DNA of 37,532 nucleotides, from the IMG/VR virus record IMGVR_UViG_3300044612_001896, positions 1-37,532 of that record. One strand, 5' to 3'. The notes beneath the pieces are model-generated. The model made no database searches. It was not told where the DNA came from and saw only the letters and a list, made by a program, of their open reading frames with translations. A program made the position numbers and the translations under genes. The stretch comes from a virus. Shown piece after piece: positions 2,993-31,989 of this stretch. The first letter of the stretch is position 1; each line of letters begins with the position of its first letter.

Positions 2993-3733
2993 GTGGCTGC
3001 GATCACCACCCGATACAAACGGTTCGTCGCCGTGTCCTGTTCGCACGGCTCGGAAATTGACCCGAAGGCGCGGGAGGCCGTGCTGACTTTTATTGACCGC
3101 TGGAAGCCGCATGAGCGTATCCACCTTGGCGACGCGATTGACCTTGCTTGTTTGCGAGCCGGAGCACGGCGTGATCCCGACGAACCCGACCGCGCGCAAA
3201 GCCTCATGGACGACTTGCTGGCTGGGCTGTCGTTCCTGCATGAGCTTCGACCGACTCGCTACTTTCACGGCAACCACGAAGCGCGCGCCGTGAGCCTAGC
3301 CCACAGCGGCAATCAAGTGGTTGCCTATGCTGCGGGCGCGGTGATGGCAAAAATTCACGACGGCCTTGCCCGCTACAAGACCGAGATTATCCCGTACAAA
3401 GGCATGGCGCGGGAGTCGGTGCGCTATTTTGGCGGCACGGCGTTTTTGCACGGAGCGCTTTACAATGTGAGCGCGGCGCGGGACACGGCGGAAACCATCG
3501 GCGCGCATTGCGTTTTCGGTCACACGCACCGGGTGGCAATGGAACCGGCCCGCACGCACGCCGACGCCATTGGCTACAATATCGGCTGTCTGGCCCGCCT
3601 CGACATGGAATATGCGGCAGGCAGACGGCAAACGCTTGCGTGGAGGCAAGCACTGTGCTTCGGAGAATTTTCCGAAAACGTCTGCACGGTCAACCTCGTC
3701 ACCCTTTCCCCCCACTACCGGCTCCCGCTATGA
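2993..3733 (+). CDS. Metallophosphoesterase (calcineurin-like)
   Basis: A 246-residue GTG-start protein with the calcineurin-like phosphoesterase signature: HLGDAID (Asp47), FHGNHE (Asn94, His95), FLHG (His154) and GHTHR (177-181). These residues bind the two metals and hydrolyse phosphomonoesters or diesters. In motif I the usual Asp-x-His reads Cys16-Ser-His18 (SCSHGS), so one metal ligand seems replaced. The substrate is unknown; nucleotides, cyclic nucleotides and nucleic acid are all possible. It heads a four-gene unit with stop/start overlaps down to 4432. Its place beside int and attP is typical of accessory lysogeny genes. The family is certain, the role is not. Confidence 0.85.
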   Translation: MAAITTRYKRFVAVSCSHGSEIDPKAREAVLTFIDRWKPHERIHLGDAIDLACLRAGARRDPDEPDRAQSLMDDLLAGLSFLHELRPTRYFHGNHEARAVSLAHSGNQVVAYAAGAVMAKIHDGLARYKTEIIPYKGMARESVRYFGGTAFLHGALYNVSAARDTAETIGAHCVFGHTHRVAMEPARTHADAIGYNIGCLARLDMEYAAGRRQTLAWRQALCFGEFSENVCTVNLVTLSPHYRLPL

Positions 3734-10229: not shown

Positions 10230-11252
10230 TCAGCATGGTATCCATTCCTGCTGCCGTACCCGAAGGTGCCCGCGATACTCGCCTTCCGTCTCGTGGTAGG
10301 CGCGGTAATGTACGAACGGGGCGGGGGCGTCTTTGGGCGCGTGTTTCACATGGTCCGCCGCCGTGTGCGGGATGGCCGCGATGCGAAGACCGGCGGGGTG
10401 CCAGCGGTGCCAGCAAAGGAACAAATCTTGCGTTCCCTTGCCGTCGTACCCTTCGAACGTCGCCAGTGCCAGCGCCTTGGCCGAAAGCAGCGTGCAGCCG
10501 AGGCCGCACCAGTCGGATGGCACAATGGCCCCGCGACCGATGCCGGGATAAGCGAAATCCATCCAGCCGCGGCGACGCCAGCCGTGTTTAGCTGTGACCT
10601 CGAAGACGTTGCCCTCCGGCGGGCATTTCTTCACGCGCTCATGCAATCTCCCTAGCCGCTGGCCTTCTCGCTCGCTCGTCGGATCTGTTTTGAGCCGCGC
10701 GCGGCAGGCGTCGAGCGCCCGCACGAGGCGCGGCGGGAGCTTGCGTTCTTTCTCGGTGAAGTCTTCGGCAATGGGATTCTGCGGCGTGCCGAATCCGCCG
10801 AGAAAAAGGCCGTTGGGATAAGTGACGGCGGCGAGGTCGTAGTAAGGCGAGCCGTCCGCTTGCGGCATTTGCAGCGTCCATTCCGCCACGCGAAGGGCGT
10901 CGGCAGGCACGAGGTTGTCGGACTCGACCGACCACAGGGCTTGGGCACGAATCTTGCGCGCGGCGGCAAACGCGGCAGACTGGAGGGCGGCAATCCTCAT
11001 TTGCGCCGCGACTTGGTAGTCTTTGCCGTCCTTCCCACCGTCGTTCAGCGGGAGATTGAGCGACTGGATGCGCCAGCCCTCCGGCAGCTCGATCTTGGCG
11101 GCCTCGATTGCATCCTTGGCCTCTTTGCTCTGATCGGTCGCCAGAATGAAATGCGCCTCGTCGTGATGCGCAGCGGCGGCGGCGATGCGGCGCAGAAATT
11201 GCGTCCAGCAATGAAAATAGGAACGGGTCGCGTATGTAGCAATCGCTAGCAC
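10230..11252 (-). CDS. Glycosyltransferase-like protein (GT-A type), 340 aa
   Basis: The GTG at 11252 is preferred because it lies 15 nt after a TTTGACA element; an in-frame TTG at 11273 overlaps that element. The N-terminal half has a GT-A layout: LAIATYATRSYFHCW, then the metal-site-like ALWSVESDN. The C-terminal part carries GLGCTLLSAKALALATFEGY and DLFLCWHRW followed by an essential-looking His (IPHTAADHVKH), as in family-2-like transferases. It is probably a sugar transferase acting on a virion or surface target. It lies between the Ser/Thr-rich structural gene and fibre genes, so the Ser/Thr-rich protein is a possible acceptor. Confidence 0.7.
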   Translation of the reverse strand: MLAIATYATRSYFHCWTQFLRRIAAAAAHHDEAHFILATDQSKEAKDAIEAAKIELPEGWRIQSLNLPLNDGGKDGKDYQVAAQMRIAALQSAAFAAARKIRAQALWSVESDNLVPADALRVAEWTLQMPQADGSPYYDLAAVTYPNGLFLGGFGTPQNPIAEDFTEKERKLPPRLVRALDACRARLKTDPTSEREGQRLGRLHERVKKCPPEGNVFEVTAKHGWRRRGWMDFAYPGIGRGAIVPSDWCGLGCTLLSAKALALATFEGYDGKGTQDLFLCWHRWHPAGLRIAAIPHTAADHVKHAPKDAPAPFVHYRAYHETEGEYRGHLRVRQQEWIPC

Positions 11253-11267
11253 TCGAGGCGTGGCGGG

Positions 11268-11274
11268 TGTCAAA
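11268..11274 (-). promoter_or_regulatory. TTTGACA element before the glycosyltransferase gene
   Basis: The element includes the TGA stop of the upstream Ser/Thr-rich gene (GTTTGACACC) and lies 15 nt before the GTG at 11252. Confidence 0.5.
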
Positions 11275-19247: not shown

Positions 19248-19254
19248 TGTCAAA
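19248..19254 (-). promoter_or_regulatory. TTTGACA element, 14 nt before the joining protein
   Basis: The element includes the TGA stop of the glycosyltransferase gene (CTTTGACAGG). Confidence 0.5.
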
Positions 19255-19822
19255 GCTGATCGGCGGGCGGCGGCGGGTCGGTCGGTTTGCTGCGGTAGCG
19301 GTAAAAATAGATCGGGTCGTCCCCGCTCCATTCTTCGGTCTTTATGTGCTGCAAAAGGCCAAGGGCATAGCGGTAGTCCTCACCCCACATCATATCGGGA
19401 AATCGGCTTTTCAGCGCCATGTCGCGCCGTAGCGGGCAGAGATGGTGCGGCGTGCGGTCTTGTCCGTGCCATTGGAAGTTTTCGCGGAATCGGTAGCTGT
19501 GGCGAAAAATGGGCGACGGATGCCAGTCTCGCCCGTCCATTGTGACGTGCATAGTGATGCCGACGCAATCGGGCTTGGTCTTGAGACAAGGCAAGATGCG
19601 CGCAATGTAATCGGGCGAAACCATGTCGTCGTCGTCCACAAAGGCGATGTAATCGCCGGTGGCCGCTTCGATCATGCGCTGTCGTTTGGCTCCGATGGTG
19701 CCGGGGCCGTCGTCGGTCAAATAGCTCACGCCTCTAACAAGCTGCGGCTGCAGCACGGCAAGCAGCTCGGCCAGCATCTTTTCACGCCCCGGCATGGTCG
19801 GGATGAGGATTTGCAAAGTCAT
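19250..19822 (-). CDS. Family 2 glycosyltransferase, 190 aa
   Basis: A compact GT2 (GT-A fold). The N-terminal strand is LQILIPTMPGRE, the metal-binding motif is FVDDDD in YIAFVDDDDMVSPDYI, and a later WGEDYRYAL matches the ED catalytic-base region. It transfers a sugar from an activated nucleotide donor. The ATG overlaps the preceding stop (ATGA), so it pairs with the large two-domain transferase. These two genes interrupt the usual capsid-to-connector order and follow a strong terminator. Confidence 0.85.
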   Translation of the reverse strand: MTLQILIPTMPGREKMLAELLAVLQPQLVRGVSYLTDDGPGTIGAKRQRMIEAATGDYIAFVDDDDMVSPDYIARILPCLKTKPDCVGITMHVTMDGRDWHPSPIFRHSYRFRENFQWHGQDRTPHHLCPLRRDMALKSRFPDMMWGEDYRYALGLLQHIKTEEWSGDDPIYFYRYRSKPTDPPPPADQL

Positions 19823-27793: not shown

Positions 27794-29575
27794 TTACGGA
27801 GTCACTTCTTCTGACGGAGCCGCGCCCGCGTCAAAATTCCCCCGGAGAATTTGCCAACTAACCACGGCCAGCTTGCAGCAATCCCCGTAGTGATCGTTCG
27901 GCAACTTCTTCCACGTTTGCAGCGTCCCGCCCGCCGTGCGCTTCGTCATGAGTTGCTGCCCGCTGAGTCCCGCGATGAGCGAGTCCGGGGCGTCGATCGA
28001 CAAACGGAAAAGCGGAACGCGGCGGCGATTGATTCGCCAATCATAGAACTCCGTCTTGAGCGTTTGGTCGATGTAGGTGTAAAGCCCCAAGCCTTCGGGT
28101 TGTTGCAAGCGCGTGTATCGCACTGGGTCTTTGCCGAAGGCTGCGTCACTTCCCTTGCTCGGCCACAGCACCGGGGCCGTGGCATAGCACACATTGTAAA
28201 CGCGCTCGGTGAGGTAGCCGCTATCGACAAGCCCGCGCTGAATAAAAACGTCATTGCCCGCCGCGTCGAGGTAACGAAGACGCGCGGGGTTATCTTCCTG
28301 CACGAAGGCAATAAGGTCTTCGGGCGACAAGACCGTGCCGCAATCAATCGGTGTAATCTCTCCCGTGATGCTGATCGCGGAAACAACCCAATGCGTCTGA
28401 TTTTGTCCGGGGTCAGCGCCGAGGAATAAATAAGCCAGGCGATCCCCGGAGCAGTGCGGCGGGATCTTTTGCCACTCGCACGAAACGTCCCGGCATTGCC
28501 TCACCTTTTCCTCGCGCACGTTTACGTCGATCGGCGCGTATGGAATCGCCAGCGTTGAGTTGTTGAAGTCCTGCAAATCGGCGGGCGTATCCTTCCCCTG
28601 CAAAAACTTTGCCGCCAGTTCGCCAAAGCCGCAGGAACGCCATGGCGCATAAAGCGAGTTGAGATGATAGCTGCGGCGTCCCGCAGAGGCGGCGGGATTA
28701 GTTGCGCGCCATTCGCCCTCGCGGAGCATCTTGGTTTTGTGGCCGTCCGTGATCTTGCCTTGGCAAGCCGCGCACTCGTAGTAAGCCGAAGCGCGCACAG
28801 CGTCCTCGTTCCACTTGCCGTCGAGCTTGGCCTCCTTGTCCCATTTGACCTGTGAGAACTCCAGCCGTTGCTTGTCGCCGCAATGCGGACACGGGACGTA
28901 GTAATAGCGCTGATCGCCCGATTGAAATGCCGTCCAGATTTCGCCGTCTGGCGTGGTCGGTGTCGAGGTCTTCACCCGGAGCGCGTTCGTGTAGCTCTTG
29001 GTGCGATTCTCGGCCAAGGCTACGGCAGAGGATTCCTTTTCCGTGGCCTCGGCAAACTTGTCCGTCTCGTCCATGACCAACAACCCGGCAGGACGCGAAG
29101 CCAGATTTGAGGGCGAGTTAGACCCGACGAAGGTCAGCGTGGCGTCTTTGAACTGCTGCTCCAGCGTCTTGTAGCGATGCGTATTGTGCGGCTTGAGCGC
29201 GGCCAAAGGGCGGCAGTCATCAACCATCGGTTGCCAGCGATTCTCGGAGAACGAGCGCGCCATGCTTTCCGTGGGCATGACCCAAAGGGTCGGGAAAGGA
29301 TTGTTGCTCATGCGCCATGCTGTTCCGATCATGACGATGGTTGTTTTGCTGGTCTGCGTTCCAAAGCAAAGCGCGAGGTCGGTCACTCGCGGATCACTAA
29401 AGCACTCCAACGGCTCGCGGACGTAGGGCGTGAGCAGGGTTGAATACGGCCCCGGCGTCTCGGTCTGACGGCGGGACAGCACGATCTCGTCCTCGGCCCA
29501 TTGCCAAACGCTGCGCGTGTCGATGGGTGCGAACACATCGCGCAGGCTTCGGTCAAGTTGTGCGGTGAGCGTCAT
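27794..29575 (-). CDS. terL: Large terminase (lambda gpA-like), 593 aa
   Basis: The DNA-packaging motor and nuclease. The ATPase has a Walker A-like FGTQTSKTTI (71-80) and Walker B LLVMDE (165-170). A zinc ribbon follows (CPHC 229-232, CAAC 268-271). The nuclease part includes LGADPGQNQTHWVV, DSGYLTERVY and NDHYGDCCKLAVVS. This is the GpA family used by cos-type phages, so cos packaging is likely. The start chosen is ATG at 29575; the frame extends further upstream but overlaps the neighbour by only 23 nt this way. Confidence 0.95.
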   Translation of the reverse strand: MTLTAQLDRSLRDVFAPIDTRSVWQWAEDEIVLSRRQTETPGPYSTLLTPYVREPLECFSDPRVTDLALCFGTQTSKTTIVMIGTAWRMSNNPFPTLWVMPTESMARSFSENRWQPMVDDCRPLAALKPHNTHRYKTLEQQFKDATLTFVGSNSPSNLASRPAGLLVMDETDKFAEATEKESSAVALAENRTKSYTNALRVKTSTPTTPDGEIWTAFQSGDQRYYYVPCPHCGDKQRLEFSQVKWDKEAKLDGKWNEDAVRASAYYECAACQGKITDGHKTKMLREGEWRATNPAASAGRRSYHLNSLYAPWRSCGFGELAAKFLQGKDTPADLQDFNNSTLAIPYAPIDVNVREEKVRQCRDVSCEWQKIPPHCSGDRLAYLFLGADPGQNQTHWVVSAISITGEITPIDCGTVLSPEDLIAFVQEDNPARLRYLDAAGNDVFIQRGLVDSGYLTERVYNVCYATAPVLWPSKGSDAAFGKDPVRYTRLQQPEGLGLYTYIDQTLKTEFYDWRINRRRVPLFRLSIDAPDSLIAGLSGQQLMTKRTAGGTLQTWKKLPNDHYGDCCKLAVVSWQILRGNFDAGAAPSEEVTP

Positions 29576-29723
29576 GTTTTTTCGCGTCGATATTGCGACG
29601 AATGAATTGCATTTCCTCACGAAGCAGGCGGCTTTGATGCTCTAACTCGCAAAGCCTTTTGTGCATTGCGGCGAATGAAGCAATCCACGGCGGAAGCTCT
29701 GCAGTGTCTTCTTTATTGCTCAT
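29553..29723 (-). CDS. Small coiled-coil peptide before the terminase, 56 aa
   Basis: The ATG at 29723 overlaps the glycosyltransferase stop. The peptide is a single helix with heptad-like leucines (MHKRLCELEHQSRLLREEMQ). It may link expression of the glycosyltransferase and terminase genes or bind one of them. Unknown function. Confidence 0.55.
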   Translation of the reverse strand: MSNKEDTAELPPWIASFAAMHKRLCELEHQSRLLREEMQFIRRNIDAKKHDAHRTT

Positions 29724-30598
29724 GCCGCCTTGCGCCATTTTTCGTCAATGATCTTTGGGCAGGCGTTGTTCCACTTGATGTTGTGATGAATGCGTCCGCT
29801 CGACGGACACACGGTATTTATCTTCGTGCATGATGGAGCGGCCAACACGGTGTAAAATGTTTTCACATACGTTCCGCTTTCCAGATAAACGTCGGTCATT
29901 CCTCCCGCCGTTTTCTGCGTTGGCATCTGAGTTAGTTCAATTAGAGGAACGTGGAAAAATAACCCTCCTCGAAGACCATGCAGCACATACGCCGTGCAGT
30001 CTTCATTCATGTGACCCATAAACGCGAAGGGCTTTTCCGTGTCACAAAACCAGAAATTCATGCACTTTCTTTTTAGGTGCCAACCATCCTTGATGTAGTT
30101 GTTGCCAGCGCCACCGATGAAATCTCCGCCCTGTGAAATCGACATGGCGACCGCTCCGCTCTCTTCGTAAAATTTTTGCAGTGCGCGCGTCACTGCATCC
30201 ATGTTTTTGACTTCTATAAGTTCTTCGCCCGATGCAAAGGCCATGCGATGATTGAAGCGATAGCGATATTTCGTGTAATCATCGTCTAACTGGACGAAGT
30301 AACGATAGCCCAGGTCTTTGGCAGCTTTGAATGATGCGTTACGCGCATACACAATGGCTTTGCGGTGCGGAAAATTATCACCCGCATCTGTTCTTTTCGC
30401 TTCTGCTATCTTGTCGAACACATAAACTTGATCGCCAAACTTCCGCTCATATTCGGCGCGCATCTTGTCCTCGTTGTCGATAAGGATGCAGATGCGGCCA
30501 GTGTAGCCCTGTCGGCGCAGCGAGTCGTAAGTGTGGACTCTCTCGGGACGCCCATGAGTGAGAATCATCATGAGCGGCAAATCAGCCTTACTGCTCAT
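29720..30598 (-). CDS. TET-associated-type glycosyltransferase (TAGT), 292 aa
   Basis: A GT-A fold with N-terminal LMMILTHGRPERVHTYDSL, a metal site VQLDDDYT (102-109) and later GGDFIGG, NFWFCDTEKPF, NEDCTAYV, GGMTDVYLESGTYVKTFYTV and a final IHHNIKWNNACPKII. From memory these match the TAGT family, named for its link with TET/JBP dioxygenases in phage genomes, where it adds sugar to hydroxymethylated DNA bases. No TET/JBP enzyme, hydroxymethylase or DNA methyltransferase is visible here. It overlaps the ParB-like gene by 11 nt and is lower in GC than its neighbours, hinting at recent transfer. Confidence 0.8.
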   Translation of the reverse strand: MSSKADLPLMMILTHGRPERVHTYDSLRRQGYTGRICILIDNEDKMRAEYERKFGDQVYVFDKIAEAKRTDAGDNFPHRKAIVYARNASFKAAKDLGYRYFVQLDDDYTKYRYRFNHRMAFASGEELIEVKNMDAVTRALQKFYEESGAVAMSISQGGDFIGGAGNNYIKDGWHLKRKCMNFWFCDTEKPFAFMGHMNEDCTAYVLHGLRGGLFFHVPLIELTQMPTQKTAGGMTDVYLESGTYVKTFYTVLAAPSCTKINTVCPSSGRIHHNIKWNNACPKIIDEKWRKAA

Positions 30599-31364
30599 TG
30601 TTGAAGTCCTCCAAGTATGAGTCGCGCAGTTTTTCTCCTAAAGTGACGTAGCCCGATTCCAGTGCTTTGTTGAAATCGACAATGACTAATGCGGATTCCT
30701 CAAATAGTCGCTGCACTTCTGGTTCGGAGTGAGCATAGTATTCCGCGATTTGCTGAAAGTTGAACACGGCGTGTCTGTGAGCAGCCAAGCAAAGAAATTT
30801 TTCGATTTCTTCTGATAAGTTGGCTTCGCTGATCTTCTGCAAAAGTCGTTCAGTTTTTTCCGAATCAAACAACTCGGACACTGGTGGCTTGGGGCCTTGT
30901 GGCTCATAAATTGGAACAGTGATTTTTTTGGTGTATTGCCCCTCGCCCAACTCTCCGGGCGGTTGATCCAGCAATGCGCCAAGCTCTTTCAGAGATGATT
31001 CATCAAACCCAACGTCCTCCAGCCCGATCCCTTCCGCCGCCAATCCCTCAAGCTCCGCGCTCAATAGCTCAGCGTCCCACTCGGCCAGTTCCGCCATGCG
31101 GTTGATGCTAATCCGCAGAGCCTTGATGTCGGCCTCGCTTAAATCGTCGCACAAGACGGCAGGCACTTCCTCCATGCCAAGGTGCTTTGCGGCCTTCACC
31201 CGCAGATGTCCGTCAATCAGCGAGCCGTCCGACTTCGCCAAGACCGGGACGCGAAAGCCAAAGCGTTTGATGGCAGAAGCTACGGCCTCGACGGCGTGAT
31301 CGTTCTTTCGCGGGTTGCCTGCGTAGGCAATGAGTTTATCAAGTGGCAGTGTTACGGTTTTCAT
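30588..31364 (-). CDS. ParB-like nuclease/NTPase-domain protein with C-terminal extension, 258 aa
   Basis: The start chosen is the ATG at 31364, which overlaps the terS gene by 26 nt. Residues 1-90 are a ParB/Srx-type domain with NPRKN (17-21) and the nucleotide-binding box DGHLR (51-55), then an HTH-like helix region. The C-terminal ~110 residues (TVPIYEPQGPKPPVSELFDS, EIEKFLCLAAHRHAVFNFQQ, IAEYYAHSEPEVQRLFEESA) form a separate helical domain that I recall from phage proteins encoded beside TAGT genes. The domain's GC is lower. It may guide base modification to sites in the DNA, which is inference. Confidence 0.75.
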   Translation of the reverse strand: MKTVTLPLDKLIAYAGNPRKNDHAVEAVASAIKRFGFRVPVLAKSDGSLIDGHLRVKAAKHLGMEEVPAVLCDDLSEADIKALRISINRMAELAEWDAELLSAELEGLAAEGIGLEDVGFDESSLKELGALLDQPPGELGEGQYTKKITVPIYEPQGPKPPVSELFDSEKTERLLQKISEANLSEEIEKFLCLAAHRHAVFNFQQIAEYYAHSEPEVQRLFEESALVIVDFNKALESGYVTLGEKLRDSYLEDFNNEQ

Positions 31365-31989
31365 TTGGTCGGTTGGTTTCTTTGAAAAGCATTCTGATCC
31401 AGTTCTCCATGATCCCTTGGGCGTGGATCGGGTCGTTCGGATTAAGTTGCGCGGACAAGGCGGCGGGGGCAGCGACCAGCTTTTGCCGCAGATCGCTAAA
31501 GACTTGCCGATATGTCCGCTCGGCGTCCTCGACTTGCATCGTCTTGCCGTCCCGCTCCATAAGGTCACGAAGCTGTCGCTCATAGGCGACTTGCTTGGCG
31601 ATGTATTGCTGATGCGTTTGCGCCCAGCGGCGAGATGCCTCGATATCCCCGGAGTGGTGCAGGCGCGCGACTTGGGCGGCGGCGTGTTTGCGTAGCTGCC
31701 TTTGCTCGTTTAACGCCTCCCGGCAGTTGTCGGTATCGGTGAAGGTCTTGGTTGGTTCCGCGACGGGTTCGGGTTCGGCGGGTTCGGGGGATTCTTCGTT
31801 CTCCGTGGAACTTTCGGCGGGAGTCGGGCTCGGCGCTGGCCGGGGCTGGCTCGCTATGCGGCTGCGGCCATTGCGCTGATACCAAGATTGAGCGGCTTCA
31901 ATGCTGTCGATGGGCATCCCGCGCTTGATGCACTTATGCGCCCCGGCCCCGGTAATTCCGAGGGCGGCGGCAAGAGCGCGGACAGTCAT
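31339..31989 (-). CDS. terS: Small terminase subunit, 216 aa
   Basis: The N-terminal 40 residues are an HTH (VRALAAALGITGAGAHKCIKRGMP) of the Nu1 type that recognises packaging sites. A Pro/Glu linker (PAPSPTPAESS, SPEPAEPEP) leads to a long helical oligomerisation region (CREALNEQRQLRKHAAAQVA) and a C-terminal end for binding the large subunit. The gene opens the late operon behind its own control region. A TTGACA element lies 14 nt before the ATG. Confidence 0.8.
   Translation of the reverse strand: MTVRALAAALGITGAGAHKCIKRGMPIDSIEAAQSWYQRNGRSRIASQPRPAPSPTPAESSTENEESPEPAEPEPVAEPTKTFTDTDNCREALNEQRQLRKHAAAQVARLHHSGDIEASRRWAQTHQQYIAKQVAYERQLRDLMERDGKTMQVEDAERTYRQVFSDLRQKLVAAPAALSAQLNPNDPIHAQGIMENWIRMLFKETNRPNENRNTAT

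Follow-up and report, generated by a model that had tools for sequence, protein, structure and literature searches.

Excerpts of PMC13216743, a paper from 2026, report that the TAGT glycosyltransferase of phage T6 acts on phage DNA, adding a second glucose to glucosylated hydroxymethylcytosine (HMC), and an excerpt of PMC13390438 likewise assigns a T6-like TAGT to the second glucose. The excerpted text of PMC13216743 also describes solitary phage TAGTs, present without the alpha- or beta-type glycosyltransferase (alpha-GT or beta-GT) in 288 of 753 phage genomes, and suggests that they are novel transferases; the words ParB, partner, accessory and terminase are absent from its main text, and the links to them drawn below come from the present analysis. 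Here we analyze the TAGT locus of IMG/VR virus record IMGVR_UViG_3300044612_001896, a record of 37,532 nucleotides (nt) that was analyzed whole, is hereafter called the window and may be a fragment. Its TAGT would fall in the solitary class, as far as the excerpts describe that class, and is encoded between terminase genes, just downstream of a gene for a ParB-type N-terminal domain (N-domain) followed by an unnamed C-terminal domain, here termed the partner domain.

The beta-glucosyl-HMC alpha-glucosyltransferase (ggt) of T6 matches the same Pfam family (PF20691, E 1e-8) and the same PHROG (phrog_842, E 5e-78) as the window TAGT, with no significant similarity between the two by direct BLASTP. 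Its annotated neighbors include uvsX and dCMP hydroxymethylase (30 kb viewed) and no partner or ParB gene; a hidden Markov model (HMM) of the partner found none either, a weak test in that the TAGT HMM missed ggt itself. An earlier sequence-only reading of the window had tied TAGT enzymes to TET/JBP dioxygenases, the association to which the family owes its name. The T6 enzyme, of the same Pfam family, needs none and sits beside dCMP hydroxymethylase, and the rule that TAGT implies TET was rejected on the precedent of T6, a phage not known to carry TET. A literature search of partial coverage (titles, abstract starts and selected passages) found no paper describing the partner-TAGT pair. The TAGT prediction reportedly goes back to Iyer et al. 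2013, who may already mention the ParB link, and for this reason we claim no novelty for the ParB association.

The constant companion of TAGT is the partner domain

On the minus strand of the window, the genes follow in the order terS-like gene, ParB gene, TAGT gene, 61-residue open reading frame (ORF) and terL. The TAGT gene (29720-30598, 292 amino acids) overlaps the ParB gene (30588-31364, 258 amino acids from the ATG at 31364, with an alternative in-frame ATG at 31583, within terS) by 11 nt (30588-30598), and ORF coordinates and family assignments confirm the reported placement of the overlapping pair between terS and terL. That the two genes stand together is not a chance observation, because the pair recurs in other phages. 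The ParB protein is bipartite, consisting of a ParB/Srx-type N-domain of about 130 residues (delimited here as residues 1-136, 30957-31364) and the C-terminal partner domain of about 120 residues (30588-30956), which is recognized by its pairing with TAGT, its base composition and its conserved residues and is predicted to be mostly helical.

The partner HMM, built from eight proteins, matched upstream of TAGT in all 80 viral loci studied, taken from the at least 530 IMG/VR stretches that encode TAGT relatives, and in 35 of the 37 TAGT loci found in GTDB species genomes. In 79 of the viral loci, the partner and TAGT frames directly adjoin, and mechanical calling gives overlaps of 4 to 110 nt; in the remaining one (L054), TAGT lies 75 nt from the edge of the stretch, and the whole record shows the partner just upstream, in two frames. 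The reverse search, starting from the partner, returned 80 loci, three of them already in the first set. Among the other 77, some of which lie on contigs of the first set, TAGT was present at 76: within 150 nt in 71, with a longer overlap in one and beyond one intervening gene in four. The exception (L141) carries the partner 25 bases from a contig end that cuts the locus, and no TAGT in the record. A tblastn search with TAGT against 50,697 phage records yielded 36 matches, and all 28 partner-bearing records of that collection were among these 36.

The ParB N-domain was detected on the partner ORF in 67 of 79 viral, 29 of 35 genome and 47 of 77 reverse loci, the misses including shortened ORFs and at least two domains (L074 and L080) that look by eye like diverged ParB. 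Several complete ORFs of about 130-160 amino acids consist of the partner alone, and free-standing partner domains are found in Vibrio phage pv27 and elsewhere; phrog_620, labeled 'ParB-like partition protein', also reaches such domains. The sequence-only reading had described an orphan TAGT paired with ParB, a unit that we rejected since ParB can be missing and the partner hardly ever is: the unit is partner plus TAGT, not TAGT plus ParB.

Nine partner residues (Y144, P151, Y153, P160, R197, H198, A207, Y210 and D230) are present in all 56 aligned proteins, comprising the window and 55 of 71 complete ORFs. The NCBIfam scan gave no name for either TAGT or partner, and a Foldseek-based structure search with the partner half, in which folds that Foldseek misses cannot appear, returned no convincing match. 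Two TAGTs occur in nine loci, of which L069 and L077 are near-identical, and in L083 (7015-9525, plus strand) a tandem of two complete partner-TAGT pairs precedes a radical SAM/SPASM gene.

Partner and TAGT appear to be exchanged as a unit

Both genes had been described as lower in guanine-plus-cytosine (GC) content than their surroundings. This holds for TAGT (49.3%) and fails for the ParB gene as a whole, which is low only in its C-terminal part (45.5% in the partner against 57.8% in the N-part); the flanking terS and terL genes have 60.7% and 59.0%. Taken together, partner and TAGT (29720-30956) reach 48.3%, a value in the lowest 0.22% of segments of equal length.

Comparison with the nearest relative, the metagenomic locus L011, places the same two elements apart from their flanks. 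Identity to L011 is 98.4% in TerL, 95% in the 61-residue ORF (29553-29738, minus strand), which overlaps both TAGT and terL, 92% in TerS and 87% in the ParB N-domain, whereas the partner reaches only 56% and TAGT 60%. Near ParB residue 121, protein identity drops from about 95% to about 35-75% per 20 residues, marking an approximate recombination junction at codon 121 or so of the ParB ORF (31000-31010); 93.6% nucleotide identity resumes from position 29794, with an approximate second junction at the end of TAGT (29720-29800). Across 52 protein sets (the window and 51 loci in which a ParB N-domain was detected), TAGT distances track those of the partner (r = 0.61) more closely than those of the ParB N-domain encoded in the same ORF (r = 0.38), with a bootstrap difference in r of 0.24 (0.11 to 0.38). 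From the GC break, the allele swap relative to L011 and the distance correlations, partner and TAGT appear to be transferred together, one of the two junctions lying within the ParB ORF.

TAGT has a GT-A fold and the ParB gene a ParB-type N-domain

The window TAGT scores well above the curated Pfam cut-off for PF20691 (E 2.5e-27; 96.6 bits against 27.5) and matches phrog_842 (8e-56), in line with its proposed family membership. Its AlphaFold2 model (predicted local distance difference test score, 85.6) adopts a GT-A fold, with 1fo8 as best structure match (VIA Z 14.2; root-mean-square deviation 3.9 over 196 residues). The structure comparison suggested by the sequence-only reading thereby recovered the expected fold. 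In an alignment of 63 proteins, made up of the window TAGT and 62 of the 84 TAGT ORFs that are complete in the viral loci, D105-D107, D200, R17, R86 and N87 are invariant. A fold match to AvpGT (9jn3), which an excerpt of PMC11959488 describes as a nucleoside 3'-O-glucosyltransferase, had prompted the idea of DNA-end capping; it is given little weight, being one of many generic GT-A matches and lying outside the 50 entries of a later structure search.

Variants of the enzyme were also observed. In L112 (6498-7901, plus strand), TAGT is fused to an N-terminal part of about 180 amino acids with weak P-loop/guanylate kinase matches. A second, divergent TAGT lineage is present in Bacteroidota genomes (L227, 7917-9295, minus strand, and L228, 7866-9208, plus strand; phrog_842, E 7e-25 and 1e-27), where it overlaps a ParB-like gene whose C-terminal part differs from the partner domain (identified in L228 through phrog_620, E 1.7e-25, and in L227 by eye and phrog_17622) and lies near an ORF that is terminase-like by eye.

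ParB partition proteins combine a parS-binding helix-turn-helix with a C-terminal dimer domain and have a ParA companion. The window protein resembles chromosomal and plasmid ParB, Noc and KorB, which are CTP-binding clamps, in the fold of residues 1 to about 140 (Z about 13-15), whereas its C-terminal half is the partner domain and no ParA-like Pfam family was matched among 51 ORFs of the window, a record that may be partial. The N-domain is predicted to have the ParB fold anticipated from the sequence (VIA Z 14.9 to 6sdk and 7bnk); the structure match ends near residue 140, where the partner follows. At the level of sequence, the gene matches phrog_620 (5e-53) and phrog_498, falls below the cut-off of Pfam ParB_N (20.1 against 26.3 bits) and scores far below those of the NCBIfam ParB models. 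A conserved G-H/N-x-R motif is retained, with G52 and R55 present in all 52 aligned rows that are ungapped there.

This N-domain is shared with another class of phage genes. Used alone, it matched 519 phage records at E values up to 0.001 (28 records at E values up to 0.01 in the case of the partner), and among the 25 matches listed of the 519, the top bit scores belong to Streptococcus phage methylase genes. Residues 1-97 of the window protein are 50.5-54.6% identical to methylase genes of three Streptococcus phages, and TAGT-linked N-domains in metagenomic contigs are closer still, at up to 87%. The phage ParB_N-DNA methyltransferase genes (phrog_498; Streptococcus Javan316 and EJ-1, Psychrobacter pOW20-A) have a homologous N-domain and a comparable position one small gene before terL, which was seen in the two Streptococcus phages opened; they differ in that their C-terminal part is annotated as a methyltransferase, while the window has the partner and a separate TAGT, and no methyltransferase family among the Pfam matches of its proteins. 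Because the same N-domain is fused to DNA methyltransferases, it is possible that ParB chooses the site, as the sequence-only reading proposed; in copies missing ParB, the partner has to suffice. Excerpts from the literature place a methylase/ParB gene in most Wolbachia prophages WO (PMC9203015) and a 284-residue ParBc gene (gp104) two genes before terL in Stenotrophomonas phage DLP3, where an RfaB-type glycosyltransferase gene lies a further two genes upstream (PMC7326821). DLP3, which is not among the TAGT matches, may represent an analogous arrangement with another glycosyltransferase type.

The cassette lies beside terminase genes in most loci

The cassette of the window is flanked upstream by the terS-like gene (31339-31989, minus strand), a weak match to phrog_57 (E 2.6e-4), and downstream by terL (27794-29620, minus strand), which is of the GpA type (PF05876, E 2.1e-62). 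Genomic neighborhoods were compared in 75 loci retained from 117 after redundancy removal at 80%. A first large downstream gene, defined as an ORF of at least 300 amino acids within 4 kb, was present in 62, and in 47 of these it encodes a terminase subunit; 46 were assigned through five clusters, one member of each checked against Pfam, and one by direct match. The five clusters comprise 26 Terminase_6N, six small-subunit Terminase_2, five TerL_ATPase, five Terminase_6C and four GpA proteins, so the position is kept although the packaging genes differ, extending to other loci the terminase neighborhood noted in the window. The link is not universal: among the 13 loci lacking such a gene, five still had over 4 kb of downstream sequence. 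The other first genes encode radical SAM proteins (six), a UDP-galactopyranose mutase, a GDP-mannose dehydratase/epimerase, a helicase and, directly after the TAGT of L096 (10856-11947, plus strand), a DNA polymerase processivity factor (phrog_947, E 1e-30); five (L020, L045, L109, L118 and L124) carry no assignment. Within the cassette itself, partner and TAGT can be separated by a methyltransferase-like gene (L103, where it is the single intervening gene, and L140, L143 and L144, the last three near-identical), which scores just below Pfam cut-offs in the two copies scanned (L103 and L143), or by a PAPS-reductase-like gene (L153).

Elsewhere in the window, a GT2-like glycosyltransferase ORF with a DDDD motif (19250-19822, minus strand; family assigned by eye) lies inside the structural module, and consequently TAGT is probably not the only glycosyltransferase of this phage. 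Two window ORFs match Glycos_transf_2, and 10230-11273 may, by eye, be another glycosyltransferase. Near the integrase end of the record, the ORF at 2993-3733 (plus strand) is metallophosphoesterase-like by eye, and Metallophos_2 is among the Pfam matches of the window.

TAGT is widespread across hosts and rare per genome

Phages matched by TAGT infect E. coli, Salmonella, Nocardia, Vibrio, Lactobacillus, Porphyromonas and the archaeon Haloarcula, and the pair is present in many bacterial groups and in a haloarchaeal virus. Seven of nine phage records opened have a ParB-type gene directly upstream of TAGT and overlapping it, including phage NTR1, in which that gene is annotated as hypothetical and is ParB-like by alignment. 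The other two are Vibrio phage pv27, whose small free-standing partner gene lies 8 nt upstream of TAGT, the pair sitting between primase/exonuclease and helicase genes, and Lactobacillus phage Ld17, which lacks ParB and has a shortened TAGT. Besides Ld17, TAGT matches that are shortened or partial were noted in L010 (75-833) and in Lactobacillus phages Ld25A and LL-Ku, the TAGT tail of Ld25A lying under a ParB annotation. These sequences suggest decay of the cassette in some dairy phages. In Lactobacillus phage c5 (L007, 1-863), the ParB-partner gene starts at base 90, near an annotated cos site (1-11).

In bacterial genomes, an even draw of 395 Bacteroidota yielded TAGT above cut-off in four, making it rare per genome. 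The cassette of E. coli phage 673R7 was matched at a coverage of at least 80% in 885 of 5,426 complete E. coli genomes (16%), and many of the matches listed give its ParB gene the name ynaK. In 673R7, the pair lies in a Rac-like prophage, and the ParB gene follows trkG in a record with Rac-type genes. The annotated ynaK of E. coli O16:H48 CV601gfp (L230, 5001-5264) spans just 264 nt and overlaps ydaY, and the annotation shows no TAGT downstream of it. Six low-scoring loci (L221-L226) probably encode other GT families and, like L220, gave no partner match by HMM.

Carriers show no common route to a hydroxylated base

The sequence-only reading saw no TET/JBP, methyltransferase or hydroxymethylase in the window. 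In agreement with it, no Tet_JBP, thymidylate-synthase or DNA-methylase family was among the 23 Pfam families matched by 51 selected ORFs (E up to 0.001), and a Tet_JBP search of the whole record found none. Recurrence of the pair in phages without TET/JBP, for which it had suggested a search, is likewise what we find, with Tet_JBP in none of 50 related records, a weak result in that no control genome matched: these searches never exceeded the cut-off in any genome, and in one of them E. coli alone matched, below it. The thymidylate-synthase family PF00303, for which the control matched in nine of 14 genomes, was detected in one of the 50 records (Vibrio phage pv27).

Gene content was also compared across seven phages (the window, jlb1, c5, E. 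coli phage 673R7, HHTV-2, the Porphyromonas phage and NTR1, leaving aside 8.6 kb of NTR1 and 2.6 kb of HHTV-2). With phmmer (E up to 0.001), no gene family other than TAGT was detected in every phage. The partner was recovered in five, the other two copies being annotated and lost in ORF choice or linking, and the next commonest family occurs in three. At this level of comparison, the carriers reveal no shared way of making a hydroxylated base.

A candidate DNA-modifying glycosyltransferase

We consider it probable that partner and TAGT constitute an exchangeable two-component glycosyltransferase, which would most likely modify the DNA of the phage itself, at or before packaging, and hide it from nucleases. 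In such a system, the partner would dock TAGT onto DNA and set the choice of acceptor, for which an ordinary base, a cryptically modified base and a DNA end are all candidates. The ParB N-domain, when present, would be a borrowed nucleotide-binding, DNA-targeting module like that on phage DNA methyltransferases; second TAGTs and radical-SAM, methyltransferase and nucleotide-sugar enzymes may extend or decorate the sugar; and allele exchange may reflect an arms race with restriction. The evidence fits a partner that acts as an adaptor or specificity subunit and is replaced along with its enzyme when alleles are exchanged, and we infer a base-modification role for the cassette. DNA would be a likelier target than protein, because the T6 TAGT acts on DNA, DNA methyltransferases encoded at the same genomic position carry the ParB N-domain too, and the pairs of pv27 and L096 lie beside replication genes. 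An excerpt of PMC13216743 reports that T4 alpha-GT co-purifies with the T4 clamp.

Several observations weigh against this proposal. The T6 TAGT extends an existing sugar on hydroxymethylcytosine, while PF00303 is found in only one of 50 related records; with nearly all carriers lacking a thymidylate-synthase-family hydroxymethylase, the T6 reaction cannot simply be copied. GREB1, a human relative, reportedly glycosylates a protein, and some E. coli TAGT copies are annotated 'GREB1-related protein'; radical SAM/SPASM enzymes, for their part, often act on peptides. The partner has no named homologue in the family libraries scanned, and its free-standing copies mean that targeting by ParB is not general. 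Of the two genome loci without a partner match, L121 shows, by eye, a ParB-like ORF of 147 amino acids, and L127 carries a distant TAGT cut by the contig end, with upstream sequence present. As regards exchange, the L011 partner (52.7% GC) is not as low in GC as that of the window, and the ClpP-type head gene has also diverged in L011 (65% identical). Lastly, an E. coli prophage with related terS and terminase genes has no cassette at that place, so that packaging system can do without it.

The acceptor could be made in a conventional two-step manner, with an unrecognized phage or host enzyme hydroxylating the base before the TAGT-partner complex adds the sugar, as in T-even phages. This would be a special case of the two-component DNA glycosyltransferase, its likelihood overlapping with that of the general proposal, and we regard it as possible if doubtful. 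The T6 precedent, the thymidylate-synthase-family gene of pv27 and the many phage genes of unknown function all speak for it. Set against these are the distribution of the pair over viruses and genomes of many bacterial groups and a haloarchaeal virus, which are not known to share a hydroxymethylated base, and the lack of any family besides TAGT common to the seven phages (three of seven for the next after the partner), at a sensitivity that remote or non-orthologous enzymes would escape.

The persistence of the cassette across very different hosts, with no shared base-modifying genes detected, makes direct glycosylation of ordinary DNA a serious, if tentative, possibility. Here the partner-TAGT complex would act on unhydroxylated DNA, such as the exocyclic amine of a base or a terminase-made DNA end, needing neither dioxygenase nor hydroxymethylase, and the partner, exchanged together with TAGT, would give acceptor specificity.

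The main rival to a DNA target is protein glycosylation, which we judge unlikely. The partner would then bring TAGT to a protein target, which could be capsid, portal, terminase or a host protein that binds nucleic acids, and proximity to the terminase genes would reflect nothing more than late co-expression with virion genes. The late, packaging-associated gene position is consistent with such a role, as are the reported action of the relative GREB1 on a protein and the many protein-acting enzymes among the GT-A fold matches, though that fold is generic. A phage announcement, seen in excerpt, does infer capsid glycosylation from glycosyltransferase genes (PMC11256854). Arguing the other way are the DNA-acting T6 TAGT, the N-domain held in common with DNA methyltransferases, the pv27 pair among replication genes and the processivity-factor gene following the L096 TAGT; moreover, virion decoration would be better assigned to the GT2-like ORF in the structural module of the window. 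A further reading, in which a ParB-type nucleotide switch operates on cos or pac during packaging and nothing but the partner or the ParB protein itself is glycosylated, would agree with the ParB fold and its G-H/N-x-R motif and with the start of the c5 ParB gene after the annotated cos site, but is very improbable given the many complete copies with no detected ParB and the pv27 partner-TAGT pair kept among replication genes.

Implications

The results presented above give one large group of solitary phage TAGTs a near-constant partner domain and a minimal two-gene unit to express, with growable carriers available in Lactobacillus phages, Haloarcula virus HHTV-2 and E. coli. If DNA proves to be the substrate, the cassette would represent a widespread, exchangeable DNA-glycosylation system, with a bearing on restriction evasion, on artefacts in phage sequencing and on new DNA-labeling enzymes. 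Should direct glycosylation prove true, DNA could be sugar-modified by a direct route, without any dioxygenase or hydroxymethylase.

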